A stretch of 36,388 nucleotides of DNA from a virus: the IMG/VR virus record IMGVR_UViG_3300008516_000636, positions 1 to 36,388 of that record; one strand, written 5' to 3'. Below, one piece after another: positions 1 through 36,227 of this stretch. The position numbers and the translations under genes are program-made. The notes below the pieces were generated by a model that was given only the letters and a program-made list of their open reading frames with translations, was not told the DNA's origin and ran no database searches. How positions within the stretch are numbered: the stretch's first letter is position 1; every line of letters starts with the position of its first letter.

Positions 1-413
1 CTCAACCACGGGCTTGTGCAGATTACTACGTCGTATTTACCCCAGTCAACTTCGTTTTCTTTGGGATAGGTTTCAATACGCTTCCGGTCAATCTCTGCAT
101 CTACCGGGTCTATTGCGCGCGCCTGTGCGTGCTTCCTGTAAAACCCTGTATTGTCAAGCATTATTTCCGGCCACAAGGCTTTCTTTTTGTCCCACTTCAA
201 TTTATCTTCGTGGCTCTTGGCTCTATCTTCATACCATTGCGCGGGGATATTAAGTATGATTAGGTCTGCGCCGTCTCTCAGCAATCCCCACGCTTGCACT
301 CTCGATTCAAACGTAGCTAATGCATCAAGCGGTTCGATGCCCGATTCCCATATAATGGGTTCTGGCCCCCAAATGTCCTTGTCGCGGGCATCTTTGGCTA
401 TAGCTATTTTCAT
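1..413 (-). CDS. Partial unrecognised protein, N-terminal 137 codons
   Basis: ATG 413 overlaps the methyltransferase stop as ATGA, and the frame continues off the left window edge. Visible parts are an N-terminal strand (MKIAIAKDARDKDIWGPEP), a segment resembling a Rossmann strand (GADLIILNIPAQWYEDRAK), a charged helix, and a further strand at the edge (KYDVVICTSPWL). The alternation could suit a GT-B glycosyltransferase start or another alpha/beta enzyme; the clip prevents a call. It extends the glycan operon to the left. Confidence 0.6.
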   Translation of the reverse strand, partial: MKIAIAKDARDKDIWGPEPIIWESGIEPLDALATFESRVQAWGLLRDGADLIILNIPAQWYEDRAKSHEDKLKWDKKKALWPEIMLDNTGFYRKHAQARAIDPVDAEIDRKRIETYPKENEVDWGKYDVVICTSPWL

Positions 414-1240
414 TTCGGCACCGCCTTAATTAAAAGATGCCAGCCGAACGTCCTTTCCAGTAATCTGAACGCAAATCGCGGCACAAGCCGCCAGTACCAT
501 TTTTTCTTATACTCGCCCTGTTTATACGGCGCTATCTTATAAGGAAATATATGGTCAACGTGAATACTTATCGGTTCCCACCCGTTTTCTTGAAGCAGTT
601 TCTTCGCCTGCCGCTTGCTATAAGAATACGCAACAGGACAGTTCGCGTTTGCTTCCGATTGCCGTTCTATGCATTTCTGCGCACTTCTGAACGGCCAGCC
701 GCCCGTCAACATCAGCCATATAGCCTTCGTACTCCATTTATGGTAGAGCATGATACGCAGTTCACCTATACCCCTAATAAGTTTGCGTAGCTCCCTTAAC
801 GCCTTCGCCGGGTCTGGCGTATGGTGTATTACCCCGAATGAAAATATCAGGTCATATTTACGGTCGTTTATTATCGGCGACCGGCTGATTCTCTCTAAGT
901 CTTCGCAGATAAACCGAATGTAATTTGACCTTACGCCTTCAGCTAACGCCCGGCGTGCAGCTACCCTTATTGACACAGAAGATAAGTCAACCGCCGTAAC
1001 ATCCGCCCCGGCCTTCACAAAATCAATTGCCATTGTGCCAATCCCGCAACCGGCATCCAGTACGTTCTCGTTTTTCCACTTATCGTATTCAGCAAATGAA
1101 GGGATATGCGGCTCAACCTTGTATTTTTTTGTACTAACTTCACGTGAATAGTGAAGCGTTAGCGGCGACCAATCTGAATGTCCGAAATTACAAGGAAATG
1201 CGTCCCACCATTCCCTAACTTTGTCTATTCCGCTACCCAT
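410..1240 (-). CDS. Class I SAM-dependent methyltransferase, 276 aa
   Basis: Motif I NVLDAGCGIGT at 59-69, post-I VTAVDLSS at 79-86, and YDLIFSFGVIHHTPDP with ALRELRKLIR are typical of UbiG/SAM methyltransferase-11 folds. The rest has a C-terminal lid with a Tyr/Lys-rich end (KQGEYKKKWYWRLV). It overlaps the deacetylase and, by ATGA, the next gene. O- or C-methylation of a sugar or polyprenyl carrier is the contextual guess. Confidence 0.8.
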   Translation of the reverse strand: MGSGIDKVREWWDAFPCNFGHSDWSPLTLHYSREVSTKKYKVEPHIPSFAEYDKWKNENVLDAGCGIGTMAIDFVKAGADVTAVDLSSVSIRVAARRALAEGVRSNYIRFICEDLERISRSPIINDRKYDLIFSFGVIHHTPDPAKALRELRKLIRGIGELRIMLYHKWSTKAIWLMLTGGWPFRSAQKCIERQSEANANCPVAYSYSKRQAKKLLQENGWEPISIHVDHIFPYKIAPYKQGEYKKKWYWRLVPRFAFRLLERTFGWHLLIKAVPK

Positions 1241-1850
1241 ATATCCTCATTTCTCGCGGTATAACCCTTACTACTTCAAACGCTTCCGCGAACTTACTAC
1301 ACGCTTCCGGCCCCCAATAAAGCGATGCCGCCTTTGTCTTTTCTAACCACTTGTCCGGTTTCTGTGATTTATGACATGCAATCGCCTTGACTTTCATTTC
1401 AACGTGAAACTCACTAAGCGTTTCAAGCCATTGTGGCCTGAAAGTACCCGCCTTATAGCCGCCGTAAAAGTTGGGCTCATAAAGTAATACAGAAGTAGCT
1501 TTGCCCCCGCACGCAACCAGCGTATCGTAGTAAGCCATCCTGTAGTCTTGGCGCAAATCCGCATAGTGATGCGTAAATACAATATCCGGTTTCGCCTCGT
1601 TAATTGCGGCCTCAATCACCTTAACCACCTGCCGAGAATCGTACATGTCTTTTTTGGACAGGTTCGCATATAATGGTTTTGCCAGCCCCAATATCTTCAT
1701 GGCGGCTTCAGATTCCTTTTTACGCACCTTGTTTGCCTGCGAAAGTATCAGCGTGTATACGCCGCATTGCCGGGAGTGGTATTTATGCAGCGTGCCCCCG
1801 GCGTGGATTTCACAGTCATCTGGATGTGCGCCTATGGCTAAAACGTTCAT
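1233..1850 (-). CDS. PIG-L/LmbE-type deacetylase, 205 aa
   Basis: The metal-binding motif AHPDDCE (residues 8-14) and a downstream FTHHYADLRQDYRMAYYD segment are the hallmarks of LmbE-type zinc-dependent N-deacetylases, which remove acetyl groups from N-acetyl sugars. The gene overlaps the preceding one as ATGA and the following by 8 bases. Combined with an acyltransferase-like LbH neighbour, the pair suggests acetyl editing of a glycan. Exact substrate unknown. Confidence 0.85.
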   Translation of the reverse strand: MNVLAIGAHPDDCEIHAGGTLHKYHSRQCGVYTLILSQANKVRKKESEAAMKILGLAKPLYANLSKKDMYDSRQVVKVIEAAINEAKPDIVFTHHYADLRQDYRMAYYDTLVACGGKATSVLLYEPNFYGGYKAGTFRPQWLETLSEFHVEMKVKAIACHKSQKPDKWLEKTKAASLYWGPEACSKFAEAFEVVRVIPREMRIYG

Positions 1851-2695
1851 GTTTTTATTATGCTCCTGAACGGCCTATCCGAATAGAACCGCAGCCCCCA
1901 TTTCCGCATGTAGTCCCTGAAGTGGTCGGTTTCTACGTCTTCCGGGCCTTCAAATGTTAGGTATTCTACACTGAAAATGCATTCCCTGAAATAGACAAGT
2001 GGATATTCAACCTCTATAACCGGATTATACCCGTGATATTTCGCTATCTTTATGTATTCGCTTATAATGTACGCCAGTTTTTCTTCCTGTTTCGGCCTTG
2101 GGAGTGGGCATTCGATATACCTGATTAGGCGGCACGGGTTTCCTGCGCATACCGTATTTGTCAATAGGATATTTTTCGTAACTACGCTGCACGCGCCGAT
2201 GACGTTCCGCGCCCCTATCGTAACGCCCGGCAGAATCGTTGTCCTGAACCCCACAATTACACCGTCATCTATTGTTACGCCTGCAAATTTCGCCGGGAAA
2301 CCTTCTAATACGGAAAGCCAATATCCATGCGTTTGTATAGATACCTCGCGACTTAAACCTACGTCGTTACCAATAACTACCGGCTCTGCGATATTGATAT
2401 AATTGTCGTGTATGGTGCATCTATTGCCTATTGTTAAGTTTGCCTGTGGGTTCGTATTCCCGCCGCCGCCTACATTAAGGCCCCTGCTGTGATATAAATA
2501 CTTCCCGAACAGAACGTTGTTACCGCGAATTTTTATGTCATTTCCAAGGTGGCTGTAGTCCCCAATTGCGAATTCACCCCGCACCTGTATATCGATGTTC
2601 TTGCCGAACGTGACCTTCTTGCCGACCGAAATCTTATTGGCGCGGATAACAATATTGCCTGGCATTTCCCTTTTAATCAAGGCGGTATCCCCCAT
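1847..2695 (-). CDS. Left-handed beta-helix (hexapeptide) transferase-like protein, 282 aa
   Basis: Repeated hexapeptide-type turns run through residues 15-185 (for example IVIRANKISVGKKVTFGKN, IDDGVIVGFRTTILPGVTI), the pattern of LbH acyltransferases that O- or N-acetylate sugars. Residue H124 in the THGYW segment may be the catalytic base. The last 90 residues are an additional domain. The ATG at 2695 overlaps the SDR by 23 bases; ATG 2665 (MPGNIVIRANK) is an equally plausible start. It would act in the same glycan pathway as its neighbours. Confidence 0.76.
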   Translation of the reverse strand: MGDTALIKREMPGNIVIRANKISVGKKVTFGKNIDIQVRGEFAIGDYSHLGNDIKIRGNNVLFGKYLYHSRGLNVGGGGNTNPQANLTIGNRCTIHDNYINIAEPVVIGNDVGLSREVSIQTHGYWLSVLEGFPAKFAGVTIDDGVIVGFRTTILPGVTIGARNVIGACSVVTKNILLTNTVCAGNPCRLIRYIECPLPRPKQEEKLAYIISEYIKIAKYHGYNPVIEVEYPLVYFRECIFSVEYLTFEGPEDVETDHFRDYMRKWGLRFYSDRPFRSIIKT

Positions 2696-3371
2696 TCACA
2701 TTTAAGACTTCGCCCGTAATAAACGATGCCCTATCTGACGCCAAGAACATAACCGCATCTGCCGCTTCTTCTGGCGTTCCAAATCTGCCCATCGGGGTAT
2801 CCTTAACAACCCGCCCTTTGATGTTATCTGTTAGCCTATCGCACATACCCGTTCCCATAAACCCAAGAGCTACGGCATTGCAGGTGATTCCCTTGTATGC
2901 ATTTTCCAATGCTACCGACTTGGTAAGTCCTATTACCCCGGCTTTCGATGCCGCGTAGTTCGCCGCACCTGCGCATCCCGTATGCGCTAAGACGGAAACA
3001 ATATTTACAATCCTGCCATAGCCCTTTTTTCTCATGTGCGGCAGGGCTGCTCGAATACAATTGAAGACGCCGTTGAGATTAACATCAACCGTATTGCGCC
3101 ATTGCGCACCTGTCATCTTATGAACGGTAGCATCATCTGTTATTGCGGCATTGTTGATAAGTATATCCGGTTTCACACAATCAATAACATGGTTTACTTC
3201 TGCGGGTACTCTTGCGTCCATTCTGTGTAAAGTAACATAACTGCGATATTGTGCCGCGCGCCTACTTGTTCCGTGTACTTTCGCATTTACATCTGAAAGT
3301 ACATTCGCCAATACGAATCCAAGCCCGCGATTTGCACCCGTTACCAATACGGTCTTGTTAGAAAAGTCCAT
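2673..3371 (-). CDS. Short-chain dehydrogenase/reductase (FabG-like), 232 aa
   Basis: All classical SDR features are visible: the cofactor loop TGANRGLG at 11-18, NNAAI at 73-77, N98, S126 and the YxxxK pair Y139/K143, and an SDR-like C-terminus (GEVLNVNGGYRLD). It likely oxidises or reduces a sugar nucleotide or related substrate with NAD(P). An AGGAG sequence lies 9 bases before ATG. SDRs in phage genomes are uncommon; next to glycosyltransferase genes a sugar-modifying role is the most plausible. Confidence 0.82.
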   Translation of the reverse strand: MDFSNKTVLVTGANRGLGFVLANVLSDVNAKVHGTSRRAAQYRSYVTLHRMDARVPAEVNHVIDCVKPDILINNAAITDDATVHKMTGAQWRNTVDVNLNGVFNCIRAALPHMRKKGYGRIVNIVSVLAHTGCAGAANYAASKAGVIGLTKSVALENAYKGITCNAVALGFMGTGMCDRLTDNIKGRVVKDTPMGRFGTPEEAADAVMFLASDRASFITGEVLNVNGGYRLD

Positions 3372-3389
3372 GCGTTTACTCTCCTGTGA

Positions 3390-3680
3390 TTATTCGGTTG
3401 CTGGTTTCAGAACGGCTTTGGCTTTTTCGGCTTCCTCGGTCAGCCATTGTAATTGTAACTTTTCTATTTCTGCCGGGATGCTTATACCACAACACGATTT
3501 TACCCAAGACGCGGCTTGGCGGTAATTTTTGGCCTCCGCATCGCGCCCATCTGCAAACGCCTCTTTGGCCGCACCCATTAGCTCCCGCTCAACCCGGTCT
3601 ACTGCCATTTTGGCAGAATGTTTGCAATACCATACTACTTGGCTTTGCGGAAAAACGGCTTCTTCTGTATTCTCACTCAC
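3390..3680 (-). CDS. Small hypothetical protein behind P2, 96 aa
   Basis: GTG 3680 follows AAAGGGG with 5-base spacing, right after promoter P2. The protein is soluble, mostly helical and charged, with RVERELMGAAKEAFADGRD, a CC pair (KSCCGIS), and LQWLTEEAEKAK near the end. No domain is recognised. As the first gene under P2 it may be a regulator or a moron-type protein, but nothing in sequence shows which. Confidence 0.6.
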   Translation of the reverse strand: MSENTEEAVFPQSQVVWYCKHSAKMAVDRVERELMGAAKEAFADGRDAEAKNYRQAASWVKSCCGISIPAEIEKLQLQWLTEEAEKAKAVLKPATE

Positions 3681-3707
3681 AATATCCCCTTTCAAAGAAT
3701 ACTATGT

Positions 3708-3735
3708 ATTATATACCCTTTTCTATCTTTGTCAA
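3708..3735 (-). promoter_or_regulatory. Consensus sigma70-type promoter P2 inside the giant gene's end
   Basis: On the minus strand TTGACA (3735-3730) and TATAAT (3713-3708) are separated by 16 bases, the same spacing as P1. The -10 box overlaps the stop codon TAA (3711-3709) of the giant gene. A start near 3701 leaves about 20 bases before GTG 3680. It would let the downstream cassette be expressed independently of the upstream operon. Confidence 0.85.
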
Positions 3736-6700
3736 GACCCTCTGCGCAAATTTCGGATGTTTCCCTAAATATTCCATTAGTTCTGTTTTCTCCTGCCTAC
3801 CCGGCTGAACGCCCCGCCCCAAATCTATCCGGTTGTCTTCTGACCACGCACACCAAACATCTTCGTACCAACTCGCCGGTTCTTTGTGGTAGTGCCTCTT
3901 GTATTCTGCGTCTTTTGCCATGACGTAATTGTAGTGATGTACCCTGAAAGGCAAATAGGCAACCTTGTCATTTATCGGCGGCTCCGCGTGGCGCGGCCTG
4001 TGTACCAATACCATGCCCGGACGCCACTTGAATATCCATGGCGCATCACACCACCAACAACCATCGCCCTTAACAGCTTTCGTATGCCAGCGCCCGCCCT
4101 TCCAGAAGTTTAACGGCTTGCCCCACCAAGTAGCTATTTCGGGCCTTTCTTCTAATAAACCCCGGATAGAATTCAAGTCCTTTTGGAACCAGAATTCATC
4201 AATATCTACCTCAAAGACATAATCAGAATTACAATGCTTGCTTAATTCCGCAAACATCGCATTCTTAGATGGCCAAAATCCGTTTGACTTAGTAATTAGC
4301 GTTAGGTCTGCATCCGCGTTTTTGAGTATGTCAAGTGTATTGTCAAGGCTATGGCCGTCCTTCGTAAAGCATTTTTGCCTTATATTGTCTGGCACCGTAT
4401 CGAACCGCTCTGAATCGACGCCCTCTACAACAATAATCCTATCGGCAAAATCCCGGTAGGTTTTCAGCCACGCCTCTAACCACGGCTCACCGTTAAGTAC
4501 GATTAAGGCTACGTCGATTGTAATGTGCCGCTTCTTTATTGTTGGCTGCCTAACCATCTTCGCCGCCACCTTTCTTGCCGCTTCTGGCGTTGTGCTGTAG
4601 GGTAAATCTTTAGCTGCGCCCCTTACCCTACCTTCATATCCTATCGGTATCTGGTTTCTGCCCGGCCCCATGAAACATATCTTCGGCGTATCCGTCAGAC
4701 AGGCCAACCACGAAACGCCCGTATCCGGCCCGATATATAGAGATGCGCCCTGAATAATCGCTGCCGTTTCTAATAGTGGCGCATCTATCGCGCCCGTGTG
4801 CGCACCATCAATTACATGCGCCCGCTTACTACTGCCCACCAAAACCGTACTATACCCGTTCTCGCTTGCCCATTCGGCGAGATTGCACCTACTGTCCCTT
4901 GGCCAATCGTTACAACTACCGCAGATATTTGGGCAGAGCGCAACGTACCTATGCGGCAAGTGATATTCAGATAAATTGACTTGTGGCAAATCCATTTTTA
5001 AGCTTCTGGTGCGCTTATTAAGGGCTACACCGGCCCAAGAAGCAATGCAGTCTACCATATGCAGCCTATAGTGTGTCCTTGAAAAATGACGGTGTACGGC
5101 CATAAGGATTAACACGTGGTCATAATCATTGCCATGCTTATGCAACCAGTCATTTAGTAATGTTTCGTCCCGGTCAAAGTCTACGCCGATAGCCGTTATT
5201 CCAGAAGGTACAAACGGGATGCATTTAGAATTGATGAGCCAGTTGATTTCCGCGTCTGGATATTTCTTACGTAGCGCACTGATAGCCGGAAGCCCTTCTA
5301 ATATATCCCCAATACCGCCCGTTAAAACTACAAGCATTTTTTCAATCGGTTTATTGTCCAGGTCATCATATTTCAGACCCCAGTTCAATCCGTTCTTGGC
5401 GCCAAAAAGCTTTATCGCGTCTTGCTCCCTGCCTTCGTGCGAATCGCCGTCTACGACTACAGGCGTGGACAATACCGACTGATAATTGCTTACCGATACA
5501 CCAATGCTTTCAAGCCGCTGCGCAAATTGCAAGTCTTTGAATGCCTCGCAGGTTGCCGTTTCGATAAATCCGCGTGCCTTACAAAACGACTCTTTCTGTA
5601 TAACCCAACCAAATTTATATAGAGCCGCATCGCGTATCCACCCGCCAATGTCTTTTAGTGAAAGCTTATTCGAGTCTGTTATTAAAACCAAATTATTATA
5701 TTTGGCTCTAACCGCGCCGATATTCAGCCCGGTTCTTAGCCACGCCGGGCCGTTATCATATAGGCATTCCCTGAATCTGTTTGGCACTACAACATGCCTA
5801 ATTGAAACCGCATCGCTTTGTATAGATATTTTCTGGCTTCCCACAATAACTATTTCTGCTTTGCGGTTATTATCTTTTATCCACGCTGTTATTTGGCCCA
5901 CTACACGCCTTGCTTTTGACTTTGACGGATACGACAACACGAAACTAATGCCTTCGCTAATAGTAAATAATCCCTTGCACTTAGTAATAATGTCATCAAA
6001 GGGCATGTCGTATGTCACGTCTCTAATTATACCTGTTGTATAGTCTTCAAATCCTACTGGTATCTGATTTCGCTTAGGGTCAATGAAGCATAGTTTTGGC
6101 GTATCTAATACGGCACACGCCAGCCATGAACAGCCGTTGTCCGGACCTATGTATAATGCCGCCTTTTTAATGACCGCCATAGTTTCTTTAGGGCTTGTTT
6201 TACCACAAAGGTTCAGCGCGCCTGAAACTTCCCGCCCGTCCTTGCCGCCGACTGTGACTATTTCTAATCCCTGTTGACGTATCCAGCTAATAATCTTGTC
6301 CCTTAGTTCTGTTGGCCATGCATTACAACTGTAACAAGGGCTTGTGCATACAGCCGCGAAACTACTGGGCAGGTCAAGTTTTTCTATGTCCATTTCGGCT
6401 ACATCTACATCTATCGTGCGGTTAGCAAGTTCGACGCCACTCCAAACCGCGACACAATCCATCATATGCGAGTTATAAAAGGCGTTGATAATACGTCTTT
6501 GGAATGCCATCGCAATATGTATTTCATCGTAATTTTTAGCGTGCACCTGAAGCCATTGTTCTAAATGGCCAAGCCCCCTTGAAAACGGAACAGCTACCGG
6601 GTTTGCATATTTTGTAGGTACAAGTTCGGCCCAGCCTTCGTATGTAACCCAGTCTATTGTTGCGTCTGGATACTTCTTGGCGAGCGCCTTCACTGTAGGT

Positions 6701-9700
6701 ATTGATAAAAGCATGTCGCCCATGCCTGCGGTTAATATAAACGCAATGCGTTTGGGCGGAGGCTTTGTGCCGTCTTTCTCATTAGAACAATCTATCATAG
6801 GCAATGCATCGTATCGCATCCCCCAATTCGGCCCGTTCTTGGCTCGCTTATCGCGCCTACGGTTAGTTAATGCTATTTCCTTATCCGCTTTAGTTGGTTG
6901 TTCGGTATAGACATCTTTCCGCATAGCGCCTATATGTTTGCTGCCTCGGCCCACAAGAAGCATATCTATTTCCCATAAGAGTTCTTTTAGCCACCTTATC
7001 TGATTATCTTCTTGTGCCAATTCAATAAACCCGCGCGCGCGTACAAACTTCTTCCTGTCTATAATCAAACAATTGTCATCGCACCAAAACGCCGTCCTAT
7101 CAAGTTTATCCCATATGCTCACTATTCTTTTAACGTCGGTTGGCCCGCTTATGTCTTTAATCAAGAATAGCTTTGACTTTTCTGCGCGCGCAGCGCCAAC
7201 GTTCAGCGCCATATAGTGATGTATATTACGCGGTTTATCTGAAAAAATTATGTCGTGGGATGTCTTAGGTACAGTAACCACCTTTACCTGTAACCCCGCC
7301 TTGCCTATCTTGCCCACGTTAATTGCGTCACTAATACTTTTCCTGTCTTTTGGCGGGTTCCACTCGACAATGATTATCTCGCCCTTGATTTTAAGTTTTG
7401 AAGCCTGCCGCGCCAGCCCGTTTATAAATCCACCTAACGCCCTTATGTTCGTATCGGATTCGTTCCTGGCTGGAATTACAAAACTTACTTCGCGTGGTTC
7501 TAATGTAACAGGTAAGACGCGCGCGTTTTTACTTATAGGCTTGCGTGCGGCGATATGAAAACTCTGGTATGTATCCGGCCCGGCATTAGAACCAAGTATT
7601 TCGAACCCTATGCTTTTTAAGTGTTCGCAAAGCATATCGTGTTCCGGCTTCCACATGTGCCCAGATACCCATGCGCCGCCGGGGTTCCACGGCCTGAATG
7701 ACGGATGCGGGAGATACAAAAACATCATCCCGCCCGGCCTTAAAACTTCCTTCCAGCGCGTAAGCGCATCCTTCCAACCAGAAAGATGCTCAAGGCAATG
7801 ACTTGAAAAGATAAAATCTTGCGAGTTGTCCTCTACGCCCGGAAGCGTAACGGCATCATTTATCGGCCTGTCTAAATCTACCGGTGTAGCCAACCCGTGA
7901 TGTAGGTTTATCGGCCACCTGCCTGCGCCAATATCTAATCCTTTGCCAATACAATACCGCGTAGCCATGTGTTCTATAAACTGCTTTGCGTTACCCTTAT
8001 TCAAATACGCCGGATATTCTTCTCCGTCTACAATAACAGTCTCTTTTGATTCCGGCCTATACGCTCTCGGTAAAAATTTTAGATTGTTATACGGCGCCGC
8101 TTCATTATAATATAATTCGTTAGATTCTAATCTGTGGGTTGCGTGCTCTATCATCGCCCAGCAAAAACCAGTCATGCTCCTGTTGGCCTCAGCTTCCCTG
8201 CTTCTCCATATATCGCGCGACCGCAATTCGCCATCTACGCCGTAATTGTGATTCTGGTGTACTGCGGTAGCCGAAGGGGTTATGTCTACAAGCGGAATTC
8301 CTTTTGTTAGCGGGTAGTTAGCGAGCCAATTATCCCACGCTACCCTCCCAACCGCAAATGGCGGCATGTCTGTATATAATCCTCTTGTAAACGCGAAATA
8401 ATCAATGCCTGATGTTGAATGCAGTTTGTCCGGGTCGCCCTTTGCCCTCTGTGCAATGCGTTTTAACCCGCTTGCCGAAAGCACGTCTGGCTCTGTATTG
8501 TCCCAGTCCCACCGCCTACCAACGGCAAGGAATTCCGGTAGGTCAATAGACAAAATTGCATCAAGCCAATCTTGTAATAGTATAATGTCCGCGTTCACGT
8601 AACATAGTTTTTTATGCGAACCGTGCCTTTCGGCTTGCTCCCAAAGTGAATTAACAAGCGGTGTGCCATGTTTATTATATTCTATGTCCGGCATATGCCT
8701 GCAATGCATGTCAATGGCCGCTTCTGCTACGCCGGGGTCATCTCCCATTAGAATTATTTCTGGCGTAGGTTTTAATTGTAGCCAGCTTTTTATCGCGTTC
8801 GTTTGTGCTACGCGATACTTCCCCGTAAATGATTTCGGGCAGGTAAATATAGTTAGTCCGGGCGATACGCGGCCATCTGCGGGCGACTGCCATTCAGCTA
8901 ATAACGTGCCACCAATCCCCCACCTTATCTCATTGGTTACGGTTGCTTTTTTCTTATATTCCATCAATAATGGTATGCCGTTGTGCTTGACTTCTTCTAA
9001 TAATTCAATGCTATATTTGTCCTTGTGGTCAATATGATATATCGGATATGGTAGTGTTTCTTGTTTACAACCAAATATATCTACAAGTCTATAACACAAC
9101 ACGCCATCTATGTGAGCTGAAAAACCACCAAACTCATAATATCCGCGTGCGTCAATTATGTTTTGCTTGGCGGCCATCGTGAAATCGCCGCAAGCTGGCG
9201 TATGTAGCTTATTATCCGGTTGCTGCCTCCATACCTTAAATACTTCTTCGTTACATAATTCAAGGCGTTCTTTTACCGGAATATACATTGACGGCATCGC
9301 GCCGGTATCATGTCTATTGGCGCGGTACATTTTTTTCTTATCCAGTTCGGCGGTCGCTAAATACTTAACCATTTCATCTGAAAACAAGATGTCAATATTA
9401 GTAAACAACAAGAATCCCGCGCGCGCGCGCCTGGCGCCAACGTTCTTCGCTATCATCTGGAAGAAGGGTAACTTATCTGCGCTACCATATTTTTTGTGTA
9501 ATTCGTTCGGTACTGTTATTATTCTTACCGGAAAATAAGGTGGCGTTGCGGGCCATGATAATTCTTCAGACAAAGGCTTTTTGTCCGGTGGCGGGTTCCA
9601 CTCCACTATTATTAATTCGCCGTCAAGCTTGAATTTTTCGGCTTGCCTTACCAGCGTGTCAACAAATAGGTTTGTTCTCTCTGTTAAAAACTCCCCGTGG

Positions 9701-9738
9701 TCGTCGTTTCGACTGGCAACAATGACGCTTAGTTTCAC
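3709..9738 (-). CDS. Giant modular glycosyltransferase/methyltransferase, about 2009 aa
   Basis: One uninterrupted frame contains eight modules. GT-A I (1-258; TNID at 113-116), GT-A II (289-550; NAD at 382-384), methyltransferase (581-743; GLDIGAGRW at 600-608), GT-A III (751-985), GT9 I (997-1260; TAGMGD 1003-1008, YIGPDNG 1196-1202), GT-A IV (1263-1462), GT9 II (1467-1730; TGGIGD 1473-1478, YIGPDTG 1668-1674) and GT-A V (1739-2009; DID 1845-1847). GTG 9738 is preferred because it has an AAGGG site and overlaps the previous stop by GTGA; ATG 9774 would add 12 residues. No TM segment or signal peptide is seen, so it is probably cytosolic. It may assemble a heptose- or hexose-containing glycan. 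Acceptor unknown; modules III and IV lack a DxD, so they may be non-catalytic. Confidence 0.87.
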   Translation of the reverse strand: MKLSVIVASRNDDHGEFLTERTNLFVDTLVRQAEKFKLDGELIIVEWNPPPDKKPLSEELSWPATPPYFPVRIITVPNELHKKYGSADKLPFFQMIAKNVGARRARAGFLLFTNIDILFSDEMVKYLATAELDKKKMYRANRHDTGAMPSMYIPVKERLELCNEEVFKVWRQQPDNKLHTPACGDFTMAAKQNIIDARGYYEFGGFSAHIDGVLCYRLVDIFGCKQETLPYPIYHIDHKDKYSIELLEEVKHNGIPLLMEYKKKATVTNEIRWGIGGTLLAEWQSPADGRVSPGLTIFTCPKSFTGKYRVAQTNAIKSWLQLKPTPEIILMGDDPGVAEAAIDMHCRHMPDIEYNKHGTPLVNSLWEQAERHGSHKKLCYVNADIILLQDWLDAILSIDLPEFLAVGRRWDWDNTEPDVLSASGLKRIAQRAKGDPDKLHSTSGIDYFAFTRGLYTDMPPFAVGRVAWDNWLANYPLTKGIPLVDITPSATAVHQNHNYGVDGELRSRDIWRSREAEANRSMTGFCWAMIEHATHRLESNELYYNEAAPYNNLKFLPRAYRPESKETVIVDGEEYPAYLNKGNAKQFIEHMATRYCIGKGLDIGAGRWPINLHHGLATPVDLDRPINDAVTLPGVEDNSQDFIFSSHCLEHLSGWKDALTRWKEVLRPGGMMFLYLPHPSFRPWNPGGAWVSGHMWKPEHDMLCEHLKSIGFEILGSNAGPDTYQSFHIAARKPISKNARVLPVTLEPREVSFVIPARNESDTNIRALGGFINGLARQASKLKIKGEIIIVEWNPPKDRKSISDAINVGKIGKAGLQVKVVTVPKTSHDIIFSDKPRNIHHYMALNVGAARAEKSKLFLIKDISGPTDVKRIVSIWDKLDRTAFWCDDNCLIIDRKKFVRARGFIELAQEDNQIRWLKELLWEIDMLLVGRGSKHIGAMRKDVYTEQPTKADKEIALTNRRRDKRAKNGPNWGMRYDALPMIDCSNEKDGTKPPPKRIAFILTAGMGDMLLSIPTVKALAKKYPDATIDWVTYEGWAELVPTKYANPVAVPFSRGLGHLEQWLQVHAKNYDEIHIAMAFQRRIINAFYNSHMMDCVAVWSGVELANRTIDVDVAEMDIEKLDLPSSFAAVCTSPCYSCNAWPTELRDKIISWIRQQGLEIVTVGGKDGREVSGALNLCGKTSPKETMAVIKKAALYIGPDNGCSWLACAVLDTPKLCFIDPKRNQIPVGFEDYTTGIIRDVTYDMPFDDIITKCKGLFTISEGISFVLSYPSKSKARRVVGQITAWIKDNNRKAEIVIVGSQKISIQSDAVSIRHVVVPNRFRECLYDNGPAWLRTGLNIGAVRAKYNNLVLITDSNKLSLKDIGGWIRDAALYKFGWVIQKESFCKARGFIETATCEAFKDLQFAQRLESIGVSVSNYQSVLSTPVVVDGDSHEGREQDAIKLFGAKNGLNWGLKYDDLDNKPIEKMLVVLTGGIGDILEGLPAISALRKKYPDAEINWLINSKCIPFVPSGITAIGVDFDRDETLLNDWLHKHGNDYDHVLILMAVHRHFSRTHYRLHMVDCIASWAGVALNKRTRSLKMDLPQVNLSEYHLPHRYVALCPNICGSCNDWPRDSRCNLAEWASENGYSTVLVGSSKRAHVIDGAHTGAIDAPLLETAAIIQGASLYIGPDTGVSWLACLTDTPKICFMGPGRNQIPIGYEGRVRGAAKDLPYSTTPEAARKVAAKMVRQPTIKKRHITIDVALIVLNGEPWLEAWLKTYRDFADRIIVVEGVDSERFDTVPDNIRQKCFTKDGHSLDNTLDILKNADADLTLITKSNGFWPSKNAMFAELSKHCNSDYVFEVDIDEFWFQKDLNSIRGLLEERPEIATWWGKPLNFWKGGRWHTKAVKGDGCWWCDAPWIFKWRPGMVLVHRPRHAEPPINDKVAYLPFRVHHYNYVMAKDAEYKRHYHKEPASWYEDVWCAWSEDNRIDLGRGVQPGRQEKTELMEYLGKHPKFAQRVLTKIEKGI

Positions 9739-10313
9739 TTTGTTACCCTTGCCGCCTGTTTTTTTATCAACCATTTCCAGGCTATTATGTTGTTTTGCAT
9801 TGGTGCTGCATGCCTCTGGCCTATTACTTCAGTGTTGTAATCTTTGTCTAAAAAATATCCCGGCTCCATGTCGTCTATGTGCGTTTCGTAAATATTGCCA
9901 TAGTCAGTGCCCTGCTTGCTTTCGCCCCACGGTGCGCCCAATACCACAAGCTTGCGCGTTGCATATTCTATAGCCTGCAATGTTCCCGCAAGCTGCGTTT
10001 TCGGAATATGCTCTGGGCCGTGCCACCAGAACGTAGCATCAAATTGTTTAGGGTAAAACATAACCGAACATGCCCGCACGTCACCAAGCAGTACATGATG
10101 CCCCATTTTCAGCAAAGCAACTACGTTGTCGCAGAACGGCTCCAGAATCGTTACCGCAATACCCGCATTGATAAAATCGGGCAAATGACACTGCCGAAAC
10201 TTATTAGCCCCCACGTATAAAACAGACTGTATAAACCTGCTATCAAAAATTTCGGGTACGCAGCGCATTATACTTTGCCGCCTTTTAGGGTCTTTGTTAT
10301 ACCTACTTATCAT
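9735..10313 (-). CDS. Methyltransferase-like protein, 192 aa
   Basis: SVLYVGANKFRQ (about 30-41) is a SAM-binding-like glycine loop after strand 1, followed by TILEPFCDNVVAL as strand 2 and FDATFWWHGPEHIP as a later strand. It reads as a divergent Rossmann-type methyltransferase. It overlaps the upstream gene with ATGA and the giant glycosyltransferase gene with GTGA at its stop. Its role probably lies in the same glycan pathway. Confidence in the fold is moderate. Confidence 0.62.
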   Translation of the reverse strand: MISRYNKDPKRRQSIMRCVPEIFDSRFIQSVLYVGANKFRQCHLPDFINAGIAVTILEPFCDNVVALLKMGHHVLLGDVRACSVMFYPKQFDATFWWHGPEHIPKTQLAGTLQAIEYATRKLVVLGAPWGESKQGTDYGNIYETHIDDMEPGYFLDKDYNTEVIGQRHAAPMQNNIIAWKWLIKKQAARVTK

Positions 10314-10927
10314 TTAGCAAGCTCCAGCACGAACATTCCAAGCCCATAATACCTATCTGTAGGTTCGTGTTCAACCGCTTCTTTCCGTGTGGCTTTCCTG
10401 TAAATGTCTATGCCCTTATCTTTGATGTAAAACTTCTGCTCAATCACTTTCCATCCGCGCAATAAATTGTCAAGCCGCTTCCCGTAAATCCTGTGGTATG
10501 GCCTTACGATTCTGTCTTTTCCTATTGGGATAGTAAGTAACATTTGACCGTCCGGCTTCAATAAATTACCAAGTTCATGCATTACTTTCAAGTCCGCTTC
10601 AAGGTCTTCAATCTCTACCCCGTATCTACCGGCTATCCCGACGTGTTCCATTGTAGAACAATTTAGAATGACATCAAAGCTATGCGCGCCCAACTGAAAT
10701 TCGGGATTAAGAATATCGCCCTTTAATACCGTTAGGTTCGGCATTAACCTCTGCTTTGCATCCTGCAAGTCAACCGCTATAAGCTCTTTGCAGAAGTGGC
10801 AAGCCTGATAGGTTAAAGGTGAAGCGCCACAACCAAAATCCAACACCCTGCCCGGCACTGAATCCAAATGTATCAAAATCCAAGGATGTTCTATATATCT
10901 ATCGCCGAACAATGTACGTTCAATCAT
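10310..10927 (-). CDS. Class I SAM-dependent methyltransferase (DUF268-like), 205 aa
   Basis: Motif I is visible as GRVLDFGCGASP (about 26-37), followed by an acidic end of strand 2 (LIAVDLQD) and FDVILNCSTMEHVG (motif IV region). The section LTIPIGKDRIVRPYHRIYG is like those in DUF268 proteins of surface-glycan clusters. It overlaps the peptidase stop and the next start by ATGA. Substrate is probably a sugar or lipid; alternatives are other small molecules. Confidence 0.75.
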   Translation of the reverse strand: MIERTLFGDRYIEHPWILIHLDSVPGRVLDFGCGASPLTYQACHFCKELIAVDLQDAKQRLMPNLTVLKGDILNPEFQLGAHSFDVILNCSTMEHVGIAGRYGVEIEDLEADLKVMHELGNLLKPDGQMLLTIPIGKDRIVRPYHRIYGKRLDNLLRGWKVIEQKFYIKDKGIDIYRKATRKEAVEHEPTDRYYGLGMFVLELAK

Positions 10928-11532
10928 TTTACCCTCACCGTTACCACGTTCACAATATCATTTGCGAATACCGTACTCTTAGAGGCTATTTTTACCGCCT
11001 CCCTTGCGATGCGCGCGGCTGTCCATTTTGGTTTCGTTTTTATTAGTGCGCTCGCGGCACCTTCTGCATAGTCGCCGCCGCATCCGCCACCCAAAATAGT
11101 CATATCGCATCGACCGAATTCACCTGTTGACAGAATCTTAAAAATGCCTTCGGGCGCAACTATTATTCCCATCGCCCAGTCAGATTCTTTGTTTAATAAC
11201 GACTTGGCTACCCCTTTATGGATAGGGTCATCTGCAACTTCTGTCCACGAGCGCAGTAGCATAAAATACCCCATACAGGCATCTATCCATGTTGCATATG
11301 CGCCTATGTCCATTACTTCAGTAAGTAGTTGCGCTACCGTTTCGCCAATCGCCGCGTCGCCTGTCCACCCGGCATATACACACGCTTTGAGTTTTATTAT
11401 TTTCAGATTTGTTTCGTTGGTAGGATGATAACCCCATGATTCAAGCGAATCGGCGGCAAGCGCAATGCGGCCTTTGTGTTTTACGGCTACCAGTGTTGTC
11501 CCGCGCCTCGCCTTTTTTTCAATCAGCACCAA
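10924..11532 (-). CDS. HslV/20S proteasome beta-like Ntn hydrolase, 202 aa
   Basis: The N-terminus (KARRGTTLVAVKHKGRIALA) has the propeptide-Gly/Thr junction and first strand of T1-family peptidases. With T12 as Thr1, D28 falls at proteasome position 17 and K44 at position 33, as in active proteasome beta and HslV subunits. Glycine-rich LGGGCGGDYAEGAA (147-160) matches the family GSGG segment, with Cys in place of Ser. Length 202 is slightly more than HslV (about 175). Start could be TTG 11532 or GTG 11529. It would need an ATPase partner (HslU-like), which is not in this window. It begins a run of ATGA-coupled genes with two methyltransferases. Confidence 0.8.
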   Translation of the reverse strand: MVLIEKKARRGTTLVAVKHKGRIALAADSLESWGYHPTNETNLKIIKLKACVYAGWTGDAAIGETVAQLLTEVMDIGAYATWIDACMGYFMLLRSWTEVADDPIHKGVAKSLLNKESDWAMGIIVAPEGIFKILSTGEFGRCDMTILGGGCGGDYAEGAASALIKTKPKWTAARIAREAVKIASKSTVFANDIVNVVTVRVK

Positions 11533-11806
11533 TGCCGCCTTCCTTTAGCACGAACACCTTTGTTTTTATGCGCTTCAACGTATCTATCCTGCTTTTCAGT
11601 TCGGTAATATCTTCCTCGATAGCCTCTATCCTGTCGTCTATTACTTCACCGGCGCAGCCAAGACAGTAGCAAGTGCTGTCCGGCGCCTTTATCGTAACGT
11701 GTTGTTCGCGGTCAAGCTTCTGCTTGCATTGTTCGCATTCGACATGTCGCGTCTTTTCGTTTGCGTGCTTGCGCGGATTCCTGATTCCCCATACGTTAGT
11801 TGGCAT
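11519..11806 (-). CDS. Zinc-knuckle plus coiled-coil small protein, 95 aa
   Basis: The N-terminal part carries VECEQCKQKL and YCLGCAG, two CxxC pairs that could bind one zinc. Residues 56-80 form a coiled coil (DDRIEAIEEDITELKSRI), and the protein ends GGIGAD. No family is recognised. It overlaps the following peptidase gene by 14 bases, so coupling is likely and a functional link to the peptidase (for example adaptor-like) is worth considering, though there is no direct evidence for this. Confidence 0.62.
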   Translation of the reverse strand: MPTNVWGIRNPRKHANEKTRHVECEQCKQKLDREQHVTIKAPDSTCYCLGCAGEVIDDRIEAIEEDITELKSRIDTLKRIKTKVFVLKEGGIGAD

Positions 11807-12135
11807 TACTTAATTACCTCCAGCACGGCGTTATAGATTGTAAGGGCGGCTTCAGAGGCAGTGTGGCAAGGCAGAAAATAGGTTTCGTCTCGCCACGCCT
11901 TGCGGATAGCTGAAAATGCCTCGGGATAAGCAAAGCCGTCTCCGCACTTCTCCACCAGCATCCACGCATCGGCAATTTCTTCGTTCGGACGCCACGGCCT
12001 GAACATATGGCCTTCCTGCACCCACCATACCGCGTCATCGTTATCCTCGTCACCTAAGTCTGGGCGATAAACAACGGTTTTATTCGGAAGGTCGAGCCAC
12101 TTCGCCAACTTCTCTATATTCTCAGCGTCGGTCAT
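11806..12135 (-). CDS. Phage ABA-sandwich-like protein, 109 aa
   Basis: The C-terminal part contains WRPNEEIADAWMLVEK followed by HTASEAALTIYNAVL. This is the pattern of the phage 'ABA sandwich' domain ('W.PS..I.DAW.v.eK...t.a.AIc.AaL'). Such small proteins of about 100 residues are widespread in tailed phages with unknown role. The stop codon and the next gene start overlap as TAATG. Confidence 0.68.
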   Translation of the reverse strand: MTDAENIEKLAKWLDLPNKTVVYRPDLGDEDNDDAVWWVQEGHMFRPWRPNEEIADAWMLVEKCGDGFAYPEAFSAIRKAWRDETYFLPCHTASEAALTIYNAVLEVIK

Positions 12136-12478: not shown

Positions 12479-13015
12479 CTAATCTTCGCATTGACTTGCG
12501 CCCTTCAGTTTCCGTAAAACGGCTATAGCCGATACCGCAAAATCTTCAAGGCTGTTTTCGTTGCCGATAACGTGGTCTGGTTCGATTTCGTCAATCTCGA
12601 TTTCTGTGGCATCGCCATCGCCCAAAAATCCTGGCCGCTCGATTTTGATGATGGTGAATCCGCGCTCCCTTAATGCCGCCGCTTCGTTCAAAAGCCGCAC
12701 GTCATCTATTGTGGCGTTCATTTCCGGGCCTATCTTGGTGTCTATCTGCTGACAAATCGGGCGCAGGAAAACGTCAGGGTCAACGCTTCTCGCGTAGTTT
12801 CCAAACGTCTGCATAAGCCTACGCGATTCTTCCGTCTTTTCAATATATAGGTGTCTGTAAACCGCGCCTGCGTGGCACCCTATGTCTATAAGCACCCGCA
12901 TAAGCGCCTTCTTCATAGGTGACGTGAAGTGTAATTCCACATCTGGCTTAACGAGTTTTGCGCATGTCGTCTTGCCCGCTTGAAGATGTCCCGTGAAGGC
13001 TATTCTTGTTCCCAT
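12479..13015 (-). CDS. Deoxynucleoside monophosphate kinase-like P-loop protein, 178 aa
   Basis: The Walker A loop GHLQAGKTT (G9 to T17) sits at the N-terminus. A helical lid-like region (FGNYARSVDPDVFLRPICQQ) and a Walker B-like strand (NATIDDVRLLNEA) follow. These are features of phage dNMP kinases (T4 gp1-like), which phosphorylate dNMPs before DNA synthesis. Length 178 is short but within the family. Adjacent genes belong to the P1 operon. It could be another adenylate-kinase-type NTPase, but the DDVR strand and context favour dNMP kinase. Confidence 0.75.
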   Translation of the reverse strand: MGTRIAFTGHLQAGKTTCAKLVKPDVELHFTSPMKKALMRVLIDIGCHAGAVYRHLYIEKTEESRRLMQTFGNYARSVDPDVFLRPICQQIDTKIGPEMNATIDDVRLLNEAAALRERGFTIIKIERPGFLGDGDATEIEIDEIEPDHVIGNENSLEDFAVSAIAVLRKLKGASQCED

Positions 13016-23234: not shown

Positions 23235-25913
23235 CTATACTACCGGAGCGCCCTGCGTAGCTTGGCTATGCGGCTCCCAAAACGTTGTCGGCACCTTGTC
23301 TTGTCTTGGCGTTACGTTAGTATGTTCTTCTACTCTATTTCCTTCCGCAATTGCAATCGCAGTCGCCTCGGCCTTGTTCTTCTTCATGGCATCGATTAGC
23401 GGGTCAACAATACCACTCTTGATATAATTTTTTATTGCGGGCGCCGCATTTTTTACCGCAGTTTCCGCTTTTTGTTTGAGCATATCGGCGTCTTTTTCCT
23501 TTTGCTTTTCTTCATCTGCTTTCGTTTCTTCCGCCTCTTCTCCGATGGCCTTTTGAAGTCCGGTTATTTTTTTGCCCAGCTTTTCGGGTATCTTCTTGCC
23601 CGCGTCCTTCATTGCATCGCGTACTTTTTTTAGATGGTCGAGTTGCGATTTCAGTCCGGGCGTGATACCGGCGCGTGCTTCCTGCAGTTTGTCTATCTGC
23701 CCCTGTATAGCCGTTATGCGGCCCTGCTTTCCACCCATGATAGCTTCCGTTAATTGCCCCCGTAGTTGACCTATCCGGCCCGTTATCCTACCCGCGAATT
23801 CTTCTGGACGTTGCTGCATCATTGCCTGTTGTACCGCCTGTTGACGCATCCGCTGTCGAGCCGCAGGCGTTATGTCCCTGAAGAACCCAACTCCCGGCGC
23901 CAACCGCTGTTCACGCGCCATCTTCTCGCTAAACTTCTTCATGCCTTCTTCTGGCCCGAATTGTCTAATAAACCGTGCAGCTCGGCCAGCCTCTAAACCA
24001 CCATACTTCAAACCGAATCCGCCAAGCGCCTGCGCGGTAGTTAGCTGCCCCATCATCATTTCGTAAGCATCCCTTATCACCTTCCTTCTTTTTCTGCTGG
24101 AGGGCGGTGTTGGCGGCTGCTTGCCATATTCTGGGCCGAAGCGTTTTGTATCTACCGGCGTAGTACCCATGCCGGGTCTTCCAAATGTTTCATGCCACGC
24201 GGGCCTCGTTGCGTGTATAAATTGTTTACCCAATACGTCAAACCACCCATCTACCTTTTTGCCGGTCTTGTCTATGGCGCTACTTGCTACGCCCTCTAAT
24301 TCTTTTATGAAATCTTCGCCTGAACCAAGGGCATTATCTTTCAGGGTCTTAGCCTTGTCGGCCCAGAAATTTACGCTGTTATCAATAATACCGTTAATCT
24401 CTTTGATAATAAAGCCCGCGCCGTCAGCTATCGCCCTGCCGCCCGCAGTAAAAACATCCCCAATCCAGCCAAAACCGGTCGGCAAAAACGCCTTGATTGC
24501 CGCGCCGATTAGGCGCATCCCCATAGATGTTGCTGCCACAGACATACTTATGGCCGTGCTTATCGTGACTTTCAAAACCTGCAAGGCGATAACGCTAAGT
24601 TCGATTATCTTGCTGTTCAGATAATCCCATGTAGCATCGGTGCTTTGGGAAACGAAGTCCAGGAACGAACCGTATTTTTCAATACCCATGCCGATGAGAC
24701 CGATTATCTTGAAGACGTTAGATATAACGGAACCAAGCGTTTGACCGATTGACTTCAATGCCTTTTGAATCCAGTCGGTCTTCAGCAGTTTACTTACAAC
24801 GCTTAGGGCTTCCAGTAATCCCGGCAATAACGCTTCGCCAACTGTGCGTTTTACCGCAACAAGTTCTTGCCTCATTTGCGCCAGCCTAAACGCGGGCGTT
24901 GCAATCATCTGTTCGAATTTTCTTTGGCTCATACCTGCTGAATTTGCGGCCTTGTCAATAGAGGCAGAAAGGGCATCGACGTTGCCGATAACCTGCCCAA
25001 GCGCAATCTTGGCCCTAATGTTCGGGAATAGTCTGGATAATTCTTCCGCTGAATACCCAGCTTCCGTAAGCACTCGCGCAAACTCCTTAATGCCGCCGGT
25101 TGCCAGTGCATCCTTAAATACTTTCATAGCGCCCGCTGCTTCTTCTGCGGGGTTAGCCATCTGGTTCAGCACAGCCCTAACGCTGGTTAGGGACATAGAT
25201 GTACCAACGCCAGACCTTGTAACTTGTGCAATAAATCCGGCAAGGTCTTGCATTGATATGCCCATCTGACCCGCCATCGATGTTACCATACCAATTGTGG
25301 GTGCCAGTTCAGACATGGTTGTAATACCGTCTTCTACGGTAGCGGCAAGTATATCGGTTGCCTTTGCCGCCGTCATGCCGTCCTTTTTATATGCCACCAT
25401 AATGGCAGATACCGCCCTCGCAACTTCCCCAAGCGGCGCAAAACCGCCTACCGCTGCCTTATTAACAACGGTAAGGTGCTCTATTGCGTCTGCTGCGGGA
25501 ATACCGGCAGATAAGATGTTATATAAACCCTGAGACAAGTCTTCTGTTGAGCGCCCAAACTCTACCGACATCTTCTTTATCGCACTGGTAAATTTATTCA
25601 TGTAATTTAGTGACTGTCCGGACAGCATTGTAGACACCTTTGCCATCTGGTCAGTGAATACAGATGCAGCCTTGGTCGCAGAAATGAATCCATAGGCAAG
25701 GCCGCCAACCGTTAGTAACGGCAAGAATGTTGTTATTGAGCGCGTTATGCTCTTAAATACGCCAGTAATTACACTGCGCATCTTTGTAAATATACCGCTT
25801 ACGCCTTTACCCATTTTCGTTGCCGCATTACGCATCTTCGCGGCCATCTGCTGGAACGGCCCGGACGCCTTATCCTGAAGTGATATTTCTGCCTGCGCTT
25901 TGTATAAGCTCAT
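23235..25913 (-). CDS. Tape measure protein, 892 aa
   Basis: This is the longest gene of the tail block. It sets tail length and is ejected with the DNA. The N-terminal third is a typical TP901-type tape measure core: an amphipathic start (KAQAEISLQDKASGPFQ), a hydrophobic segment (TTFLPLLTVGGLAYGF, about 62-77), then Ala/Gly/Met-rich helices with LSQGLYNILSAGIPAADA and MVTSMAGQMGISMQDLA. Further hydrophobic segments occur near 390-410 and 450-480. The C-terminal part is highly charged coiled coil. By the common rule of about 1.5 angstrom per residue, the tail would be near 130 nm long. Confidence 0.9.
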   Translation of the reverse strand: MSLYKAQAEISLQDKASGPFQQMAAKMRNAATKMGKGVSGIFTKMRSVITGVFKSITRSITTFLPLLTVGGLAYGFISATKAASVFTDQMAKVSTMLSGQSLNYMNKFTSAIKKMSVEFGRSTEDLSQGLYNILSAGIPAADAIEHLTVVNKAAVGGFAPLGEVARAVSAIMVAYKKDGMTAAKATDILAATVEDGITTMSELAPTIGMVTSMAGQMGISMQDLAGFIAQVTRSGVGTSMSLTSVRAVLNQMANPAEEAAGAMKVFKDALATGGIKEFARVLTEAGYSAEELSRLFPNIRAKIALGQVIGNVDALSASIDKAANSAGMSQRKFEQMIATPAFRLAQMRQELVAVKRTVGEALLPGLLEALSVVSKLLKTDWIQKALKSIGQTLGSVISNVFKIIGLIGMGIEKYGSFLDFVSQSTDATWDYLNSKIIELSVIALQVLKVTISTAISMSVAATSMGMRLIGAAIKAFLPTGFGWIGDVFTAGGRAIADGAGFIIKEINGIIDNSVNFWADKAKTLKDNALGSGEDFIKELEGVASSAIDKTGKKVDGWFDVLGKQFIHATRPAWHETFGRPGMGTTPVDTKRFGPEYGKQPPTPPSSRKRRKVIRDAYEMMMGQLTTAQALGGFGLKYGGLEAGRAARFIRQFGPEEGMKKFSEKMAREQRLAPGVGFFRDITPAARQRMRQQAVQQAMMQQRPEEFAGRITGRIGQLRGQLTEAIMGGKQGRITAIQGQIDKLQEARAGITPGLKSQLDHLKKVRDAMKDAGKKIPEKLGKKITGLQKAIGEEAEETKADEEKQKEKDADMLKQKAETAVKNAAPAIKNYIKSGIVDPLIDAMKKNKAEATAIAIAEGNRVEEHTNVTPRQDKVPTTFWEPHSQATQGAPVV

Positions 25914-25923
25914 TACCCTGCCT

Positions 25924-26118
25924 TTACTTCAGCATTTTACTTAGCGCACCGCCTATGTAAATTGCCCCTTCGTCTGCAAGATTTTCAACAGCTATGTCAT
26001 ACCAGTGCATCAGATACACCATCGGCACGCCTTCCATTTCCCATGGCGGCCTTCCGTATCGCGCCGCCATAGCTTCTATTATCCTTTCGTACTTGTCGGG
26101 CTTTTCTGGCCTGGGGTT
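25924..26118 (-). CDS. Frameshift extension of the tail assembly chaperone (gpGT-like)
   Basis: In the -1 frame relative to the chaperone, codons stay open from the A-run (GGAAAAACCCC, 26123-26113) to TAA 25926-25924, giving 64 residues that include KPDKYERIIEAMAARYG, RPPWEMEGVPM and a hydrophobic-charged end (GALSKMLK). A shift at the lysine codon AAA (26120-26118) would make a 294-residue fusion. This is the lambda G/GT arrangement: a shifted product lying directly upstream of the tape measure gene. If not frameshifted, the same frame could start at ATG 26070 as a 48-residue protein, since an AGGA lies 11 bases upstream. I prefer the frameshift reading. Confidence 0.66.
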   Translation of the reverse strand, partial: NPRPEKPDKYERIIEAMAARYGRPPWEMEGVPMVYLMHWYDIAVENLADEGAIYIGGALSKMLK

Positions 26119-27072: not shown

Positions 27073-27115
27073 CGCAATTCTCCCATAACACTTACCCGGA
27101 AACGAAAGGCGATTA

Positions 27116-28374: not shown

Positions 28375-28375
28375 G

Positions 28376-30549: not shown

Positions 30550-30552
30550 TTG

Positions 30553-31065: not shown

Positions 31066-31076
31066 TCCGAATTCTC

Positions 31077-31718
31077 CTATAATCCGTTTGCGCTACGAAA
31101 TTCACGCTCCGATGGCGCAAGTGATTCCCTGTAATATGTACCCTTGCGTTCGGCGCGTTTCACATCTCTTGATTGACAGTGGTGTAAAAGCTTTACGCCC
31201 GGATAAACGGGCTTTACTGATTTAACGAGTATTTCATCGTTAAGGTGCACCGCATGGTGCGTACCGTGGTATCTGCTTGAAGGATGCTTTTTGAATAGCG
31301 CATGTACCGGATACGGGTTATTTGACCCGTCTGTTCGCTCAAGCATTACCATATAGCAATTCCCATCAAGCGGTTCTGTGAATTCGCCCTGTAGTTCTTC
31401 GTCGGCATCTATCCTTAACCACCATTTGTTGTTCGGGACATGCGGAATGTATGCGTTGCGTTTGACGATTTCGTTAGGCCATGCTGACTTGCGGGTTATT
31501 ACTATATCAGCAACTTCCTTTGCAAGCTCTATCGTGCCGTCCGTGCTGTACGGTATTTCGTGCGGAAAGCCCGCGTAGGCGCCATCTACTACTATGATGG
31601 CCTCTACCTTACCGTCCAATGACCATAGGCATCTTTCCAGCCACCCCGCATCGTCGTACACATTGATGCACGCATAAATCGGCGGGGCGGCAGGGAAGTT
31701 GTTAGACTTCCCTACCAT
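31077..31718 (-). CDS. Glycosyltransferase, GT2-like (GT-A fold), inside the head operon
   Basis: This 213-residue protein has the layout of a short GT-A enzyme: an initial strand YACINVYDDAGWLERCL, a nucleotide-sugar region (EAIIVVDGAY), and a metal-binding DAD at 104-106 in WWLRIDADEEL. Similar residues occur in the C-terminal module of the giant glycosyltransferase at 9738-3709. It follows the capsid gene by 20 bases with a GGAGG ribosome binding site, and the connector block follows it. Placement hints that it may glycosylate the capsid or another virion protein, but acceptor and donor sugars cannot be read from sequence. Host glycan modification is the alternative. Confidence 0.7.
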   Translation of the reverse strand: MVGKSNNFPAAPPIYACINVYDDAGWLERCLWSLDGKVEAIIVVDGAYAGFPHEIPYSTDGTIELAKEVADIVITRKSAWPNEIVKRNAYIPHVPNNKWWLRIDADEELQGEFTEPLDGNCYMVMLERTDGSNNPYPVHALFKKHPSSRYHGTHHAVHLNDEILVKSVKPVYPGVKLLHHCQSRDVKRAERKGTYYRESLAPSEREFRSANGL

Positions 31719-31738
31719 ATCCGCCTCCGCTTATTATG

Positions 31739-33208: not shown

Positions 33209-33233
33209 TCTGTTTGGTTCCTTTCCGTCCTGG

Positions 33234-35493: not shown

Positions 35494-35508
35494 CGCCGCC
35501 GTCCTTTT

Positions 35509-36224: not shown

Positions 36225-36227
36225 TAC

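Follow-up and report, generated by a model that had tools for sequence, protein, structure and literature searches.

The window analysed here, 36,388 bases long and linear, is the whole of the IMG/VR record IMGVR_UViG_3300008516_000636, a fragment of an uncultivated long-tailed phage. PHROGs matches within it include a major capsid protein, a head maturation protease, a head-tail adaptor, a neck protein, a tape measure protein and Dit. On its minus strand, a single stop-free frame (3709..9738, GTG start) encodes a multi-enzyme of 2009 amino acids, P0001, in which eight modules follow one another in the order GT-A, GT-A, methyltransferase, GT-A, GT9, GT-A, GT9, GT-A, where GT stands for glycosyltransferase. 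The GT-A modules are named below A1 to A5, the GT9 modules GT9a and GT9b and the methyltransferase MT; all are on the minus strand. The modules were assigned with Pfam and NCBIfam profiles, AlphaFold models compared by Foldseek and family alignments, and most of them are supported. As proposed in an earlier, sequence-only reading of this DNA, the modules were checked by domain and, for A1-A2 and A3-GT9a, by structure. Pfam recognised the GT9, MT and A5 modules and fold matches were obtained for A1-A2 and A3-GT9a, while A1 and A2 gave no Pfam match above the cut-off. The same reading had counted eight enzyme modules, comprising five GT-A, two GT9 and a methyltransferase. Eight modules are indeed present and five derive from GT-A, but A3 and A4 are devoid of the DXD and GDF motifs, and eight therefore overcounts the probable activities. 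Judging from the motifs, the modules likely to be active are three of the GT-A type (A1, A2 and A5), both GT9 modules and the methyltransferase. No relative of the entire protein was found in a whole-protein search of viral contigs or phage isolates, and among 50,697 phage records a relative was found for the methyltransferase module only.

The uninterrupted minus-strand frame of about 2009 residues described from the letters is borne out. A longer call starting at an ATG (3709..9774, minus, 2021 amino acids) is also free of stops. The GTG at 9738 appears nevertheless to be the likelier start, because it overlaps, in a GTGA, the stop codon that ends the preceding gene (9735..10313), because a GGCAAGGG-like stretch lies just 5' of it and because the homologues begin at the same place. 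Codon-position composition is even across all eight modules (GC3 0.43-0.53), so that no sign of a chimera is apparent. An independent and near-identical contig, L098 (99.98% in the overlap), spans only the head and tail region of the window (23241-36388) and stops short of the gene, and no second assembly of the gene was found among the viral contigs searched. A mis-assembly of this frame is unlikely.

The N-terminal part of the protein is made of two GT-A modules. A1 (8887..9738, residues 1-284) belongs to a family recognised by the stretch ELIIVEWNPP; its motifs are intact and its fold is matched. In the family alignment it retains the invariant N114-x-D116, GDF 184-186, H209-x-D211 and H235/H238, and homologues were found in 57 bacterial loci and in L002-L005. 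A2 (8059..8886, residues 285-560), of the YVNADIIL family, has fifteen or more aligned relatives, keeps all the residues that are invariant across 16 aligned sequences and is likewise matched by fold; its profile found no match among PDB sequences. The AlphaFold model of A1-A2 (predicted local distance difference test, pLDDT, 78.5) matches enzymes with tandem double GT-A domains, K4 chondroitin polymerase first (E 6e-15), followed by LARGE1 and heparosan synthase 2. The whole-chain template modelling (TM) score against these tandem folds is low (0.3), so that the likeness concerns the domains and their layout rather than a proven arrangement. The processive or ordered building raised in the earlier reading is conjectural; what speaks for a processive synthase is this resemblance of fold.

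A3 (6760..7503, residues 746-993) is a shrunken paralogue of A1 (34% identity, E 9e-15, z 28 against shuffles), and A4 (5353..5964, residues 1259-1462) is a second shrunken GT-A, paralogous to A3 (26%, E 2e-11, z 17 against shuffles). Compared with 49 family sequences, both are without the metal-binding D116 (a gap in A3, N in A4), GDF and His 235; His 238 is also missing from A3, and N11, N48-P49 and H81 from A4. The exact columns of these losses depend on the alignment, but the absence of the GDF stretch does not. Both modules can be placed in the ELIIVEWNPP family by homology only, since its invariant residues are not all kept. Because the metal-binding DXD and the GDF motifs are lost, A3 and A4 are probably non-catalytic remnants of GT-A domains. 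Each of them stands directly before a GT9 domain.

These two GT9 domains, GT9a (5965..6759, residues 994-1258) and GT9b (4534..5352, residues 1463-1735), are paralogous GT-B modules of family 9, with 39% identity (E 6e-56, z about 100 against shuffles). The GT9 modules score 51.3 bits against PF01075, above the cut-off of 22 (GT9a alone, 30.3; GT9b, 1.3e-13 with Pfam GT9), and both retain the GD and GPDxG motifs. The alignment of A3-GT9a with A4-GT9b extends over about 510 residues at 34%. Since it runs through both domains and the linker AKNG-NWG--YD, the two-domain [GT-A+GT9] unit was duplicated as a whole. In the A3-GT9a model (pLDDT 65), GT9a is predicted to adopt a GT-B fold like that of WaaC and WaaF, Foldseek returning WaaF, WaaC and TibC at E about 1e-8 and TMt about 0.5. 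The NCBIfam equivalog cut-offs are not reached (74.5 bits against 185.3 for TIGR02193, 30.2 against 200 for TibC/Aah), and the match of GT9b to the TibC/Aah protein O-heptosyltransferase model (2e-7) lies under the cut-off. The donor-loop region of both modules carries a three-cysteine motif, C-x3-C-x2-C-N-x-W-P (6314..6348 in GT9a, 4901..4935 in GT9b), with two occurrences in the window for a chance expectation of 0.00. A DNA pattern of this motif, run over viral contigs and 294 Planctomycetota genomes, gave matches at control level, outside a GT9 context where they were read, and the motif was thus traced to no other protein with this pattern. The position before WP is a lysine in WaaC and WaaF and N in both phage modules; in WaaC this is K192, the donor-binding lysine. 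The donor of GT9a and GT9b is thus probably other than in the standard ADP-heptose/lipopolysaccharide (LPS) case. One of the best fold matches of A3-GT9a, TibC, is a GT9 enzyme that contains iron, and metal binding by the cysteine loop may be put forward by analogy as a speculation.

The two remaining modules are of common types. MT (7513..8055, residues 562-742) is a class I S-adenosylmethionine (SAM) methyltransferase matching Methyltransf_11 (1.6e-7, 32.3 bits, cut-off 21.2), with 31-45% identity to single-domain methyltransferases of phages and bacteria. A5 (3712..4533, residues 1736-2009) is a GT2-like GT-A which, searched as a single module, exceeds the cut-off of Glyco_tranf_2_4 (4.1e-7, 30.8 bits against 27.5). 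A DID motif of the DXD type can be read in its sequence, and its homologues occur on a plasmid, in Planctomycetota and on the viral contig L116.

The suggestion that P0001 is a fusion of genes that are separate elsewhere is supported for A1, A2, MT and A5: bacteria and phages encode their homologues as genes of their own, which often lie next to one another. A1 and A2 are encoded side by side in L076, L077 and L080. In the viral contigs L116/L117, A2, an A5-like protein and a short-chain dehydrogenase (SDR) are separate genes of one cassette located downstream of the tail genes, and phages Mel-JY01 and S-T4 have a free-standing MT homologue, accompanied by genes for glycosyltransferases or for heptose synthesis. 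A1 and A2 are also found collinear within one chain, in a protein of at least 1844 amino acids from a Planctomycetota metagenome-assembled genome (L007/L063; L007:3-5537, JAGLHQ010000107.1), at 41% over residues 3-537 of P0001 (E 9e-112). In L007 the pair lies between tetratricopeptide repeats (TPRs), after methyltransferase domains. This frame and the one at 5571-8495 encode adjoining giant proteins that mix transglutaminase-like, methyltransferase, glycosyltransferase and TPR domains. Among 392 Planctomycetota genomes, a GT-A+GT9 profile retrieved only GT9-like or A1-like pieces, the best GT-A-like+GT9 reading frame being at 27%.

Phage glycosyltransferases had been said to be usually single-domain. 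This is true of the cultured phages inspected, but four uncultivated viral contigs encode two- or three-domain ones. L003:5618-8674 encodes a protein of 1018 amino acids combining GT4, GT-A and methyltransferase domains, just after the probable capsid gene; the large glycan cassette to which it belongs sits between capsid and connector genes. L005 encodes a GT4+GT-A protein of 689 amino acids (the C-terminal GT-A assigned by eye), its glycan genes having the same position; in both contigs the gene identities were partly established by eye. Neither multi-domain protein has a match in cultured phages. L118 possesses, near its head genes, a cassette with four A2-type modules, two of which form a tandem fusion of 518 amino acids (L118:15328-16884). 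Its capsid protein is related to that of the source phage (27%, 5e-29), as is its protease. Finally, L099 encodes a GT2+GT9 protein of 563 amino acids in which GT-A precedes GT9; in GT9 searches of the viral contigs, a first set of patterns retrieved no relative and a second set only this protein. Taken with P0001, these cases suggest that glycosyltransferase genes become fused repeatedly in the glycan cassettes of phages.

The multi-enzyme is part of a series of genes, all on the minus strand and extending from 3 to 12135; adjacent genes mostly share 1-23 bases, and the others are separated by less than 20 bases. The order is methyltransferase, PIG-L deacetylase, hexapeptide acyltransferase, SDR, a small gene, the multi-enzyme, an unassigned gene, a DUF268-type methyltransferase and an HslV-like peptidase. 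The first is a SAM methyltransferase (410..1240, phrog_22502) with homologues at 40-46% in many bacterial A1/A2 loci and in L004, and the phage therefore carries a recurrent bacterial glycan gene set. It is followed by the PIG-L family deacetylase (1233..1850, PF02585, 2e-16), a hexapeptide (left-handed beta-helix) acyltransferase-like protein (1847..2695) and the SDR (2673..3371), which is matched at 32% by a homologue from the glycan cassette of L116. The gene just upstream of the multi-enzyme (9735..10313) has no family match and is methyltransferase-like by eye only. Beyond it lie the DUF268/Methyltransf_11 protein (10310..10927; homologues in L118, 33%, and L081, 44%) and the peptidase (10924-11532; NCBIfam 2e-14, phrog_1040). 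A deoxynucleoside monophosphate kinase gene (12479-13015, minus) is found near the cassette. A separate GT2-like gene (31077..31718, minus; phrog_7009, 1.3e-4; weak Glyco_tranf_2_4) is flanked by the capsid gene and the head gene that follows.

Three further observations were made in the part of the window shared with L098. About 222 bases of the tape-measure gene (74 codons, apparently in frame; window 24308-24529) are absent from L098; no direct repeat is seen there, and a tail-length variant or an assembly difference could account for the gap. L098 and the record finish at the identical base. The open frame at this end (36228-36388, minus) resembles by eye the C-terminus of a Mu gpF-like head protein (HPGDP...NCRC).

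On balance, we lean towards the view that P0001 is a real phage gene encoding a glycan assembler of the beads-on-a-string type, derived from fused genes of a bacterial-type cassette and a tandem duplication of [GT-A+GT9]. Glycosyltransferase and methyltransferase genes with one domain each, from a cassette for surface glycans of the bacterial type, would have been fused, and the [GT-A+GT9] unit duplicated in tandem. A1, A2, A5, GT9a and GT9b would each add one sugar, taken from nucleotide sugars supplied by the host, so as to build in sequence a chain of up to five sugars on a cytoplasmic acceptor, the order of activities not necessarily being that of the domains. The internal methyltransferase could cap or decorate this chain, A3 and A4 may, without catalysis of their own, bind the acceptor or keep the GT9 domains in place, and the neighbouring enzymes would de-N-acetylate, acylate and methylate the sugars. 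The likeliest acceptor is a cytoplasmic protein, and most likely a virion protein. The former is favoured because no clear membrane segment was detected by hydropathy in any gene of the operon and because neither a flippase nor a polymerase or an oligosaccharyltransferase was recognised among the genes of the window, and the below-cut-off match of GT9b to a protein O-heptosyltransferase model points the same way; the latter, because the related cassettes of L003, L005 and L118 sit by capsid or head genes and because a GT2-like gene adjoins the capsid gene of the source phage. Several points weigh against this proposal. The operon position and the missing membrane segments also fit soluble enzymes of the O-antigen type, and the record is a fragment outside which transport or ligation genes could lie. 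No gene for donor-sugar synthesis was recognised in the window, and ADP-heptose is doubtful as a GT9 donor because the WaaC lysine is missing. In addition, trees leave a shared origin of the phage and L007 A1-A2 fusions unsupported (A2 support 0.5). A stronger version is improbable in our estimation: a template-like assembly line with a layout like that of polyketide synthases, on which one polypeptide would carry out a methylation and five or more sugar transfers, the GT-A domains devoid of catalysis carrying the acceptor for GT9 modules whose cysteine loop would define a new subtype.

Among the other explanations, a role in altering the host surface glycan during infection (O-antigen, capsule, S-layer or LPS core), for example to block superinfecting phages, is a serious though distinctly less probable one. 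The GT9 modules resemble LPS heptosyltransferases, homologues of A1, A2 and the 410-1240 methyltransferase are repeatedly found together in bacteria, at the same loci, and the methyltransferase homologue of phage S-T4 lies within a heptose-synthesis cluster. However, none of the genes searched was recognised as encoding an integrase, a flippase, a polymerase or a membrane anchor, the relatives carry such genes inside head/connector regions, and classic serotype-conversion modules are much smaller than the glycan gene set of this phage. It is rather doubtful that the targets are modified bases in the DNA of the phage, to which the enzymes would attach sugars. Such glycosylation by phage-encoded enzymes is known from work cited in PMC12619734, and the deoxynucleoside monophosphate kinase gene is close to the cassette, but none of the genes recognised in the window is for a hydroxymethylase or a thymidylate-synthase-like enzyme and the relatives of the modules are glycosyltransferases of the protein or envelope type.

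The motif losses of A3 and A4 could also be those of a decaying polyenzyme that is shedding modules and does little. This is quite unlikely, as both modules remain in frame with their shared linker and as the motifs of A1 and A2 and the GD/GPDxG motifs of the GT9 modules are intact. Least probable by far is an artefact in which separate genes of one or more organisms were joined in silico, their stops being lost by error. No independent contig spans the gene, which would suit this explanation; against it stand 2009 stop-free codons of even composition, internal duplications that take in the linker, and the near-perfect identity of L098 where it overlaps the record.

The beads-on-a-string proposal has precedents. 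The chlorovirus PBCV-1 encodes the multidomain glycosyltransferases A064R (638 amino acids) and A111/114R (860 amino acids), which act on capsid glycans (PMC9614988, PMC7826918). As proposed for P0001, one viral polypeptide adds several sugars without host organelles, and A064R also methylates. These proteins differ by their three domains, eukaryotic virus and known product, whereas P0001 has eight modules, two GT9 domains and a phage origin; no sequence homology is claimed between them. One giant virus is reported to have a predicted protein with four GT domains (PMC9614988). In bacteria, the trifunctional WsaE of Geobacillus stearothermophilus, which builds an S-layer glycan, joins a methyltransferase to two glycosyltransferases (PMC2943079), but it has three domains, with the methyltransferase at the N-terminus, and belongs to an ABC-transporter export pathway. 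The Planctomycetota protein L007 shares the collinear A1-A2 and methyltransferase domains in one chain, and differs by its TPR flanks, its FkbM-type and other methyltransferase domains, the absence of a GT9 unit and its cellular genome. The proteins of L003, L005, L099 and L118 are fused glycosyltransferase/methyltransferase modules of phage glycan cassettes as well, near capsid genes in L003, L005 and L118, with two or three modules mostly of other families. The Escherichia coli K4 chondroitin polymerase (2Z86/2Z87), LARGE1 and heparosan synthase 2 have tandem GT-A domains in one chain like A1-A2, but they are polymerases of repeating disaccharides, and at about 10-14% identity the likeness is one of fold only. 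P0001 would bring to tailed phages a multi-domain synthesis of viral glycans for which proof exists until now in chloroviruses, and it has more modules than the precedents mentioned here. As a single expressible protein, it also lends itself to the question whether the order of the sugars is set by that of the domains. Proteins of this kind are already known; the new elements are the number of modules, eight, the tandem of GT9 domains and the occurrence in a phage.

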